A stretch of 64,000 bases of DNA from Cellulophaga sp. RHA19. Its GTDB lineage: Bacteria; Bacteroidota; Bacteroidia; Flavobacteriales; Flavobacteriaceae. Below the pieces are notes generated by a model. That model searched no databases and was not told the DNA's origin. It was given only the letters and a program-made list of their open reading frames with translations. Positions within the stretch are counted from its first letter, which is position 1, and every line of letters begins with the position of its first letter. Below are positions 8,410 through 11,721 of the stretch, piece by piece. The position numbers and the translations under genes are program-made. The stretch spans positions 186,001-250,000 of the forward strand of contig NZ_PHUL01000001.1 in NCBI RefSeq assembly GCF_002813425.1, read 5' to 3'.

Positions 8410-9702
8410 TTAAGCAATAACTTCTGCTTTTATAACTTTAAAAGCCTCCTCTAAATCTAACTTTAAATCGTCTACATCTTCTAAACCAACAGACAAACGA
8501 ATTAGATCTTGACCAACACCAGCAGACTCTTGCTGCTCTACTGTTAATTGTTGATGCGTTGTACTTGCAGGATGAATTATTAAAGATTTAGTATCTCCTA
8601 TGTTTGCTAAAAGAGAAAATATTTTAGTAGCATCTGTTACTTTTTTAGCCGCCTCAAAACCATCTTTTAAACCAAACGTTACTAATCCGCTTTGTCCTTT
8701 TGGTAAATATTCTTTGGCAAGGTCATAGTATTTATTACTTTCTAATCCTGGGTAATTTACCCAAGCAACCTCATCTCTACCCTCTAACCAAGTAGCCAAT
8801 TCTAGTGCGTTTGCACTATGTTGTTTTATACGCACTGGTAAAGTCTCTAAACCTTGTATAATTTGGAAAGCATTAAACGGACTTAAAGCTCCACCAAAAT
8901 CTCTTAACCCCTCTAAAATTAATTTATATGTGAATGCAGCATTACCAAGAGCCTCACTATACACCAAACCGTGGTAACCTGCAGACGGCTCTGTAAACTC
9001 TGGAAACTTCCCGTTTGTCCAGTCAAACGTACCAGCATCTACAATTGCTCCTCCTAAAGAAGTTCCTTGTCCGCCTATATATTTTGTTAGTGAGTGTATT
9101 ACTAAATTAGCTCCGTGCTCTATTGGGTTTAACAATGCTGGTGATGCTACTGTATTATCTACAATAAAAGGCACCTTTGCAGCTTTTGCTTCTTTAGAAA
9201 TTGCTTTTAAATCTAGTACGTCTAATTTTGGGTTTCCTAGCGACTCTACAAAAAATGCTCTTGTATTTTCTTGTACTGCTTTGCCAAAACTTTCTGGGTT
9301 AGATGCATCTACAAAAGTGGTTGTAATACCTAACCTTGGCAAGGTTACATTTAACAAATTAAACGTACCACCATATAAACTGCTAGATGCTACAATGTGG
9401 TCTCCTGCACGTAAAAGAGTTAATAAGCCTGTAGAAATTGCTGCTGTACCAGATGCAAATACTACTGCTCCTACACCACCTTCTGCTGCAGCCAACCTAT
9501 CTTGTAATATTTGATTTGTTGGGTTGTTTAAACGTGTGTAAATAAATCCTAGTTCTGATAACGAGAATAAATTTGCCGCGTGGTCTGTATCTTTAAAAAC
9601 GTATGAAGACGTTTGGTAAATAGGCACTGCTCTTGTACCTGCTGTTTCTGATGGGTTGTGACCTGCGTGTAATGCGTTTGTTGCTAATTTTTGAGTACTC
9701 AT
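8410..9702 (-). CDS. metY: O-acetylhomoserine aminocarboxypropyltransferase (sulfhydrylase), MetY
   Basis: PLP enzyme of 430 residues that joins O-acetylhomoserine with sulfide to give homocysteine. The PLP lysine is in HSLTKYIGGQGTSLGG (around residue 208), and the length of about 430 (against about 390 for MetB/MetZ) and the insert FDWTNGKFPEFTEPSAGYHG are typical of MetY. It uses the product of the fusion protein encoded next and the sulfide from the cys operon. It is the first gene after the SAM-I riboswitch, so high SAM should lower its expression. A second hairpin with a T-run lies between aptamer and start codon. Confidence 0.94.
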   Translation of the reverse strand: MSTQKLATNALHAGHNPSETAGTRAVPIYQTSSYVFKDTDHAANLFSLSELGFIYTRLNNPTNQILQDRLAAAEGGVGAVVFASGTAAISTGLLTLLRAGDHIVASSSLYGGTFNLLNVTLPRLGITTTFVDASNPESFGKAVQENTRAFFVESLGNPKLDVLDLKAISKEAKAAKVPFIVDNTVASPALLNPIEHGANLVIHSLTKYIGGQGTSLGGAIVDAGTFDWTNGKFPEFTEPSAGYHGLVYSEALGNAAFTYKLILEGLRDFGGALSPFNAFQIIQGLETLPVRIKQHSANALELATWLEGRDEVAWVNYPGLESNKYYDLAKEYLPKGQSGLVTFGLKDGFEAAKKVTDATKIFSLLANIGDTKSLIIHPASTTHQQLTVEQQESAGVGQDLIRLSVGLEDVDDLKLDLEEAFKVIKAEVIA

Positions 9703-9780: not shown

Positions 9781-9844
9781 AAAAATTAAATGAGTTAAAA
9801 AGAAATTGGAAATTTACTTTTTTTGAAATAAAAAAGCTTGTTTC

Positions 9845-9955
9845 GTTATCTGCCTATAGTACCGCTGTACTTGGTAGAATTTAGCACCTTCTTTGTATTG
9901 CACAAAGGGTTGCTAAGGCTTCATTGGGTCTAATCCCTCCGCCTTTCTTGATAAC
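9845..9955 (-). ncRNA. SAM-I riboswitch (S-box) aptamer in the metY leader
   Basis: Minus-strand RNA shows all hallmarks of the S-box: P1 arms GTTATC/GATAAC closing the element; P2 with kink-turn region GGCGGAGGGATTAGACCC followed by AATGAAGCC and TTAGCAACC; P3 CTTTGT-GCAAT-ACAAAG; the conserved AAGGTGCTAAATTC junction; P4 GTAC-AGCG-GTAC. It binds S-adenosylmethionine and in known cases turns the downstream gene off. It controls metY and probably the trifunctional fusion and the PLP enzyme behind it. Confidence 0.95.
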
Positions 9956-9985
9956 TATTCAATAAGTGTTTTGAACTTTGAGTTA

Positions 9986-10289: not shown

Positions 10290-11546
10290 TTAAAGATTAA
10301 AAGCAGCTTTTACTGCGTTTACCATATCTAGTTTTTCCCAAGTAAAAAGTTCTACTTCTTTTTCTACCTTACCATTGTATGGAGACTCAAAAACTTTTGT
10401 GATTGTTTTTGGCTCTTTACCCATATGACCATAAGCTGCGGTTTCTAAATAAATAGGGTTTCTTAGCTTTAAACGATCTTCTATGGCAAAAGGACGCATA
10501 TCAAAAATTTGCGCTACTGTTTTTGCAATTTCTCCGTCTGTTAAATTTACTTTTGCTGTACCATATGTGTCTACATAAATAGAAGTTGGCTCTACTACGC
10601 CTATGGCGTAACTTACTTGTACCAAAATCTCGTCTGCAATACCAGCTGCTACTAAATTTTTAGCTGCGTGCCTTGCTGCATATGCTGCACTACGGTCTAC
10701 TTTACTTGGATCTTTACCACTAAATGCACCACCTCCGTGAGCACCTTTACCACCATAGGTATCTACTATAATTTTACGTCCTGTAAGACCTGTGTCTCCG
10801 TGAGGACCACCAATTACAAATTTACCTGTTGGGTTAATATGGTACTGTATTTTGTCTGTAAATAACGCTTGCACTTTCTCTGGAAATTGCGCTATTACTT
10901 TTGGCATTAAAATAGAAATAATATCTGATTTTATTTGCGCTAACATTTTTTCATCGTCAGCATCAAAATCGTCATGCTGTGTAGATACAACAATAGTATC
11001 TATACGCTGTGGTACGTTATCATCTGAATATTCTATAGTTACCTGCGCCTTTGCATCTGGGCGTAAATAAGAGATTTCTTTACCGTCTCTACGCAATGCT
11101 GCAAGCTCTTGTAATATTTTATGCGATATATCTAATGCCAATGGCATATAGTTTTCTGTTTCTTTGCTTGCGTAACCAAACATCATACCTTGGTCACCGG
11201 CACCTTGCTCTTCTTTAGAACCACGGTCTACACCTTGATTAATGTCTTGTGACTGCTCGTGAATTAAGGAAATAACACCACAAGAATCTCCACTAAATTG
11301 GTAAGCTCCTTTTGTGTAACCAATGTTATTAATTACCTCACGTGCTATGTTTTGCAAATCTACGTAAGTGTTACTTTTTACCTCACCAGCAAGCACTACT
11401 TGCCCAGTTGTAACTAGTGTTTCACAAGCTACTTTACTTTCTGGATCAAAAGCTAAAAAATTATCTAATAATGCATCACTAATTTGATCTGCAATTTTAT
11501 CTGGATGTCCTTCACTTACAGATTCTGATGTGAATAAATATGCCAT
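10290..11546 (-). CDS. metK: S-adenosylmethionine synthetase
   Basis: Makes SAM from methionine and ATP, releasing phosphate and pyrophosphate. The 418-residue protein begins [17 protein letters not shown] (ATP-binding GHPDK loop) and carries [24 protein letters not shown] and [16 protein letters not shown], the two PROSITE-type signatures of the family. It is a little longer than E. coli MetK (384), with an insert [22 protein letters not shown] as found in Bacteroidota. It is monocistronic: own promoter, long structured leader with a SAM-II/SAM-V-like aptamer, and own terminator. Cytoplasmic. Confidence 0.98.
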
Positions 11547-11570
11547 AATATTGTACTTCTATTGTTAGTA

Positions 11571-11633
11571 GAGGAATGGTAAGGTAGATTGCAACAAAAC
11601 AGGAAAAGGTGCTGATAAAAAATCAGCTAAAAT
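11571..11633 (-). promoter_or_regulatory. metK leader expression platform (anti-aptamer strand)
   Basis: Downstream of the aptamer the RNA carries CTGTTTTGTTGCAATC (11602 to 11587), whose first half is complementary to the aptamer 3' pseudoknot strand AAAACAG and whose second half is complementary to the loop strand GATTGCAAC; a further TTCCTC (11576-11571) can pair with the P1 strand GAGGAA. All three pairings nest. A local hairpin GCTGAT-TTTTT-ATCAGC (11611-11627) and an alternative GCTAAAA-CAGA-TTTTAGC (11626-11643) are also possible. This is a plausible SAM-free fold. Confidence 0.6.
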
Positions 11634-11700
11634 CTGTTTTAGCATTTTTTGTAGTACTGAGTAACAGTATACGAGGTTGCAATCAGTCAAATCCTTCCTC
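11634..11700 (-). ncRNA. SAM-II/SAM-V-type riboswitch aptamer in the metK leader
   Basis: The minus-strand RNA contains a P1 stem GAGG/CCTC enclosing GGATTTGACTGATTGCAA, then a linker with a small hairpin (TACTG-TTACT-CAGTA), then AATGCTAAAACAG. This matches the SAM-II core (a conserved ATTTgA-N-TTGCAA in the loop and GCTAAA in the 3' strand), and the H-type pseudoknot pairing is kept by CTG with CAG. The longer linker is more like SAM-V, which shares the same binding core. Placement before metK fits a SAM sensor. I judged this by eye; a covariance-model scan is needed to choose between SAM-II and SAM-V. Confidence 0.75.
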
Positions 11701-11713
11701 TTAATTTAGACTG

Positions 11714-11721
11714 CAAAAGTA
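11714..11721 (-). promoter_or_regulatory. -7 element of the metK promoter
   Basis: Minus strand TACTTTTG, exact TA-N2-TTTG match, placing the transcription start just before the SAM-II-like aptamer and giving a leader of about 160 bases. Confidence 0.6.

Follow-up and report, generated by a model that had tools for sequence, protein, structure and literature searches.

Among the closest described systems are the proteobacterial SAM-II riboswitches (RF00521; metX, metA, metZ), which like the element analysed here contain an H-type pseudoknot aptamer for SAM and for which OFF logic is expected. According to one account they act by directly occluding the ribosome site (PMC10907184), while others describe them with terminators (PMC1273637, PMC2258182, PMC9373788). 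Bacteroidota are reported to lack Shine-Dalgarno sequences (PMC6847099), so that the usual SAM-II mode of action would be unavailable to them. SAM-II long loops (RF01726) have been reported for Bacteroidetes and marine samples (Weinberg 2010, PMC2864571); the published aptamer is the same as the one found here, and the main text of that paper, its supplement aside, holds nothing on an expression platform or an anti-aptamer strand for RF01726. Strand-exchange riboswitches, in which aptamer and platform pairings are mutually exclusive and switching is probably kinetic, as is proposed for the present locus, commonly use one strand of the first helix of the aptamer as the switching sequence and are described as much less understood than other riboswitch mechanisms (PMC10907184).

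The metK leader and its predicted rod

The window, that is the whole stretch of 64,000 nt from Cellulophaga sp. RHA19 that was analysed, carries metK on its (-) strand (10290..11546; methionine adenosyltransferase, 418 aa; TIGR01034 at 508 bits, cut-off 309.4), and all leader features given below lie on the same strand. A covariance model places a SAM-II long-loop aptamer (RF01726, 11629..11706) that spans the full model (positions 1-60) at 65.7 bits, above the gathering score of 44, and from its family it is expected to bind SAM. The metK ATG (11546-11544) lies 87 nt downstream of the aptamer, while on the other side a Bacteroidota-type -7 box (TACTTTTG, 11714..11721) fits TAnnTTTG, which we take to be the flavobacterial -7 consensus, and would put the transcript start just 5' of the aptamer. 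With metK 3' and the promoter box 5', the aptamer lies in the 5' leader of a SAM/methionine gene. Of the 194 leaders of the survey described below, 183 have TAnnTTTG within the 45 nt that precede the aptamer, where about 10 are expected from base shuffles, at a median spacing of 13 nt.

Three segments of the aptamer find complements in the downstream part of the leader. Module a (GAGGAA, 11695..11700) is the P1 5' strand, module b (GATTGCAAC, 11676..11684) comprises the conserved loop and the first base of the P1 3' strand, and module c (AAAACAG, 11634..11640) is the aptamer 3' strand, presumably that of the pseudoknot as assigned from SAM-II architecture. An exact block search locates the matching segments in nested order as c' (CTGTTTT, 11596..11602), b' (GTTGCAATC, 11587..11595) and a' (TTCCTC, 11571..11576), of which c' and b' are contiguous (CTGTTTT followed by GTTGCAATC, 16 nt, 11602-11587), while the GAGGAA/TTCCTC pairing amounts to 7 bp when the flanking A-T is counted. 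The exact complementarity to three aptamer parts and the nesting of the three pairings had both been claimed in an earlier note on this DNA, with coordinates and pairings that proved right. Between c and c' lies the capping hairpin of the rod (GCTGAT-TTTTT-ATCAGC, 11611..11627) that is predicted in both states and whose stem, as judged by eye, co-varies in most of seven leaders of the window's type (GTTGA/TCAAC, GTTAA/TTGAC). The ATG begins 24 nt past TTCCTC, and the 20 nt preceding it (11547..11566), which folding leaves outside the rod, correspond to a stretch that is 49% A across the 194 leaders.

Folded without constraint (ViennaRNA), the leader adopts as its minimum-energy structure a single rod of -41.1 kcal/mol, so that the one alternative fold destroying the aptamer, as proposed in the earlier note, emerged unprompted. 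Sequence, folding and the co-adaptation described below agree in predicting that pairing with the expression platform breaks up the aptamer when no ligand is bound. The best nested chain of exact complementary blocks of at least 6 nt measures 30 nt in this leader (the three blocks originally noted account for 23), a length reached by 0/846 other stretches of the same length on both strands of the window, where the maximum is 21; the view that the complementarity is far from chance is upheld for the nested exact blocks. Predicted pairs between the aptamer and the downstream strand number 25.3 against a mean of 9.6 over the 846 stretches, although as many are predicted in 27 of these and in 2/49 stretches upstream of window ORFs, and a minimum energy equal to or lower than that of the leader is found for 43/846. 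The rod is favoured over the aptamer and downstream strand folded apart by -15.9 kcal/mol in the window (median -9.4 among leaders), an advantage that is overstated because the SAM-stabilised pseudoknot is left out of secondary-structure energies. As a control, the SAM-I leader of a neighbouring gene gave 11.1 pairs against 12.6 in base shuffles, that is no excess.

That SAM-I riboswitch (9843-9957 (-)) precedes a metY-type gene (8410-9702), and the SAM-I and SAM-II elements of the metY-type gene and of metK are 1.7 kb apart in one genome; in 2007 no species was then known with both (PMC2258182). A second SAM-I is present in the same genome (G000:C1:180698-180815). A Flavo-1 RNA (RF01705, 10122-10195 (+), 59.6 bits) lies antiparallel between the end of metK and the SAM-I element that precedes the metY-type gene.

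Matched strands across the family

RF01726 matches were obtained in 53/60, 283/299 and 45/296 genomes of three overlapping sets, and in 18/18 Cellulophaga genomes examined. From 207 loci (L001-L207), nine without a usable aptamer or gene (L066, L067, L070, L108, L200, L202, L205-L207), three duplicates and one false aptamer (L106) were dropped, leaving 194 distinct parsed leaders, 191 of them before metK, which is how the metK association of RF01726 was counted in the present survey. These 194 are the best-scoring and hand-picked ones among the matches listed, so that high scorers are over-represented, and a single genus (L085, L093) comes from outside the order of the window. One leader that was too short was omitted from the start-helix duplex and strict terminator analyses, leaving 193 for the duplex counts.

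Predicted aptamer-downstream pairs reach a median of 23.7 in the 194 leaders against 11.0 in dinucleotide-shuffled strands. Pairing is at least the median of 60 dinucleotide shuffles in 193/194 leaders and is matched by at most 5% of shuffles in 138 (kinship among leaders ignored); the other 56 are individually non-significant and z is negative in three. Leaders from families other than that of the window behave in the same manner, with 21 of 22 above the shuffle median and 15 at the 5% level. The segments paired with a probability above 0.5 include the P1 5' strand in 114 leaders, RATTTG in 128, ATTGCA in 102 and GCTAAA in 114. When the P1 strand, the middle and the 3' strand are counted as three modules, 152/194 leaders have two or more of them predicted to pair. 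None of the four main segments exceeds 0.5 in six leaders (L021, L031, L035, L175, L188, L193), the first of which is one of the seven window-type leaders. The 3' end of the anti-aptamer strand lies a median of 24 nt before the ATG (193 leaders), the same distance as in the window. What had been noted as a feature of this metK leader is real here but belongs to a design that is spread across the family and is not special to this metK.

The letters of the strand change while its layout persists. Eleven aligned leaders (L084, L090 and nine of the L097-L107 set) build the same arrangement from different sequences, with CTTTAG in 11/11, GCAATT in nine and, in the nine L097-L107 leaders, a T-rich strand containing CCTC or TCTC; the aptamer partners that these face are CTAAAG, GATTGC and GAGGAAAAA. 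Compared across RF01726 leaders, the anti-aptamer design recurs with changing sequences and its targets differ between lineages. As a separate observation, some leaders (e.g. L155, L157, L159, L181) have a GACG...CGTC hairpin that takes up the initial bases of their anti-aptamer strand, GTCAAATC. It is present in 21/44 leaders that carry the anti-aptamer strand GTCAAAT, and could possibly serve as a counter-fold of the SAM-bound state in part of the family.

Changes of target are seen even within Cellulophaga. The pattern GCTAAAACAGA + CTGTTTT + TTGCAATC occurs exactly in five named records, all from this genus. In alignment A1, read by eye, CTGTTTT and TTGCAATC are present in 7/7 window-type leaders of the genus and TTCCTC or TTTCTC in 6/7, the exception being L021, for which the predicted rod is also weak. 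Absence of the complementarity from close relatives, which according to the earlier note would have spoken against the pairing, was not what related metK leaders displayed. Ten further distinct leaders of the genus are of another type, and in most of them a strand before the ATG is nearly complementary to GGAnGGATTTGAC, which lies next to the other target in the aptamer. L034 has GTCAAATCCTTCC and L010 has GTCAAGTCCATTC as such a strand, while the fit is poorer in L006 and L033. All 17 leaders of the genus lie above the median of their dinucleotide shuffles, only 8 of them at the 5% level. As aligned, the targeted segment has changed within one genus, and the 16-base contiguity belongs to the subclade of the window.

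Because the conserved aptamer makes classical covariation scarce, the fit between the two strands was assessed with a swap test, in which 87 leaders (one per distinct aptamer core, kinship not tree-corrected) were scored with their own and with reciprocally swapped downstream strands. This test also stands in for a column-by-column count of rod covariance, since MAFFT misaligns L021 in alignment A1. Matched strands paired better in 3275 of 3741 reciprocal pairs, worse in 439 and equally in 27, and none of 5000 permutations did as well (z -11.4). A control with the strand reversed, which preserves relatedness, gave z -2.1, and three shuffles gave -1.1, -1.9 and +1.4. By this measure the downstream strands are each adapted to the aptamer of their own leader. 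Individual leaders show the co-change directly, as in L163 (GGTC/GACC with AATAATTTG/CAAATTATT; aptamer AATAATTTGGTC with GACCAAATTATT) and L014 (GGC/GCC; aptamer GATTTGGC with GCCAAATC). The base 5' of ATTTG pairs in all 82 scored leaders (G-C 71, G-U 8, A-U 3). The picture of position-by-position co-change is mixed: a CAAAT-like partner of ATTTG is found in only 100/194 strands, 55 of the 76 aptamers with AC have a GT partner, and the rarer triplets before ATTTG lack an exact partner (CGG 0/6, GGG 0/5). Aptamer, anti-aptamer strand and their co-adaptation are what sequence comparison shows.

Proposed strand exchange and the off step

We regard the leader as probably a strand-exchange SAM-OFF riboswitch with a SAM-II long-loop aptamer; its SAM dependence, polarity and kinetics, like the Rho step discussed below, are inferred. 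RNA polymerase would make the aptamer first and, some 30-60 nt later, a strand that is in effect an inverted partial copy of it. At low SAM this strand would invade the aptamer at three places and turn the leader into one rod, which would stop 24 nt short of the metK AUG and leave the start region free, with metK on. With SAM bound, the aptamer would withstand the invasion and the C-rich, G-poor strand would stay single, with metK off.

Under plentiful SAM, SAM-responsive riboswitches are expected to lower metK. The same expectation for metK at abundant SAM is found in the published description of such riboswitches (PMC2864571). Since metK should be SAM-repressed, the rod would correspond to expression in the absence of SAM, which makes the direction of control, held to be unclear in the earlier note, less open. 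The choice between the two folds would probably be made once, during transcription, because the rod is predicted to be about 16 kcal/mol better than the separate folds in the window. The aptamer of Agrobacterium metA is reported to have a dissociation constant near 1 uM (PMC1273637). At this value and an illustrative SAM concentration of 100 uM, the gain from binding is only about 2.8 kcal/mol (the pseudoknot contribution being extra), which again suggests a one-time kinetic choice. On these modelled energies the switch is probably kinetic.

For the off step our tentative preference is Rho loading on the exposed downstream strand, because folding and scans revealed no SAM-switched terminator and, in the window, no clear block of the start site. 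When its last 20 nt are left aside, the downstream strand has a C content of 0.23 and a G content of 0.11, whereas 104 intergenic upstream stretches of the surveyed loci have 0.137 for either base, and C is at least twice G in 114/194 downstream strands against 11/104 of these stretches. The C-richness is partly forced by complementarity to the purine-rich aptamer; outside the anti-aptamer, too, C exceeds G in 151/194 leaders and falls below it in 19. Positions -35 to -21 are predicted to be more open with the aptamer occupied in 136/194 leaders and less open in 13. Rho is encoded in the same genome (L220 931-2595 (+), G000:C1 at about 3.71 Mb, a 554-aa frame). Its N-terminal part is long, basic and of low complexity, and Bacteroides Rho has been reported to contain a disordered region.

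A translational off step would keep the same strand exchange and let the strand freed by SAM pair with the metK start region without a Shine-Dalgarno sequence, and we judge it rather unlikely for this leader. It draws on eleven leaders (L052, L053, L055-L058, L061-L064, L113) in which a helix of 9-12 bp joins the first 22 nt after the aptamer to the start region; the 5' strand of this helix also complements the aptamer 3' strand, with which it would compete, and L056 is changed on both sides. In these leaders the helix (e.g. TTGCTTT/AAAGCAA) encloses the anti-aptamer strand and includes the metK start region, and eight of the eleven come from genomes listed as smaller than 2 Mb. In 47/194 leaders the absence of bound aptamer makes the start region (-20 to -1) more open and in 21 less open, while shuffles lean the opposite way, and for Flavobacterium johnsoniae a lowered degree of structure has been reported around the start, from -20 to 20 (PMC6847099). 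Against this, the start-region duplex energy over 193 leaders is -4.55 compared with -4.37 for a shuffled start, with 21/193 at the 5% level and a worse value in the window. The cost of opening the window start region differs by only about 0.5 kcal/mol (5.4 to 6.0, bound harder), and among the 194 leaders there are 96 in which the bound state is harder to open by over 0.5 kcal/mol and 54 in which it is easier (p 0.05 when compared with shuffles). Relative to own shuffles the start-region cost is high in 58 leaders and low in 43, with mixed sign in the eleven-leader group. General start-site sequestration was set aside after these three tests gave weak results of mixed sign, and the models do not convincingly sequester the start codon of the window; the family may employ more than one exit for shut-off.

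Intrinsic attenuation by a SAM-dependent terminator is improbable. The earlier note had pointed to a GCTAAAA/TTTTAGC hairpin followed by T6, and this hairpin does exist in the window (-4.0 kcal/mol, ViennaRNA), with the T run three bases on. However, TGA intervenes, the hairpin occupies the aptamer 3' strand, and by eye it is only partly kept in the seven window-type leaders. The transcriptional model built on it is unlikely, because the hairpin requires a strand that is locked once SAM binds and would therefore terminate at low SAM. A loose scan returned one terminator-like site where 0.1 was expected, namely the capping hairpin (11627-11611) with the tail ACCTTTTCCT, but as this hairpin is predicted in both states it would not switch. 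A stricter scan of downstream strands alone (hairpin of -5 kcal/mol or lower, T-rich tail) found sites in 12/194 leaders against 3 in shuffles and none in the window. Folding and the two scans thus yielded no hairpin and U run confined to the ligand-bound state of the window. Very improbable, too, is that SAM acts by blocking an AUG within the aptamer (AAAAAAUGCUAAA) as the start of a short upstream frame relevant to metK. An ATG stands at this position in 169/194 leaders, in an A-rich context by eye, but 25 have another triplet, which in 14 is not ATG, GTG or TTG. The frame is no longer than the other two, reaching at least 20 codons in 56 leaders against 64 and 57, and it is more prone to early closure (at most 4 codons in 69 leaders against 47 and 42). 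In the window AAAAAAUG of the aptamer opens a 26-codon frame (11645-11565 (-)) that extends across all of the anti-aptamer strand and ends 18 nt short of metK. A conserved upstream frame starting at the aptamer AUG is unsupported, and in 4/6 other window-type leaders the frame closes after MLKQI. The least probable reading, one we find scarcely credible, makes the complementarity an unselected by-product of a purine-rich aptamer and a pyrimidine-rich leader. The leader is C/T-rich outside the anti-aptamer as well, and the 27/846 window stretches with an equal predicted pair number fit this reading, but composition-preserving shuffles fall short of the real pairing, the swap test with its reversed and shuffled controls opposes it, the exact nested blocks recur in 0/846, and CTGTTTT and TTGCAATC are conserved. 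Chance and composition were rejected as the source on these grounds (shuffles, the 846 stretches, swap test and controls).

Taking strand exchange and the preferred Rho step together, it is conceivable, and we put it forward more as a conjecture, that in Flavobacteriales the SAM-II pseudoknot has become part of a kinetic strand-exchange switch which needs neither Shine-Dalgarno sequences nor intrinsic terminators. In it, a leader-long inverted copy of the aptamer would cover or uncover a strand on which Rho loads; this copy would follow the changes of the aptamer, yet would have been re-targeted to different aptamer segments several times.

Relation to described riboswitches

In the open-licence literature, the supplement of PMC2864571 aside, we found no prior description of an anti-aptamer platform for RF01726. 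Among the literature matches listed, no Bacteroidota case of riboswitch-controlled Rho-dependent termination was found either. Riboswitch control of Rho-dependent termination was reportedly described by Hollands in 2012, in Proteobacteria. The likeness to such systems lies in the proposed last step, in which the ligand would leave a rut-like strand exposed.

By membership we class the element as a SAM-II long-loop riboswitch and by mechanism as a probable strand-exchange switch. Direct occlusion as described for SAM-II does not fit the window leader, in which 87 nt separate the aptamer from the ATG and no Shine-Dalgarno-like sequence is seen by eye in the 3' strand. Unlike RF00521, the leader continues over that distance with an anti-aptamer strand and with no SAM-switched terminator found. 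RF01726 leaders display, at the level of sequence, what replaces the usual SAM-II action in Bacteroidota, and riboswitch shut-off in this phylum becomes directly testable as a matter of Rho versus start-site control. The natural variation among nearly two hundred leaders, with their matched strands, provides material for testing strand exchange, which here, unlike the usual case, would engage as many as three parts of a pseudoknot aptamer and has targets that change between lineages.
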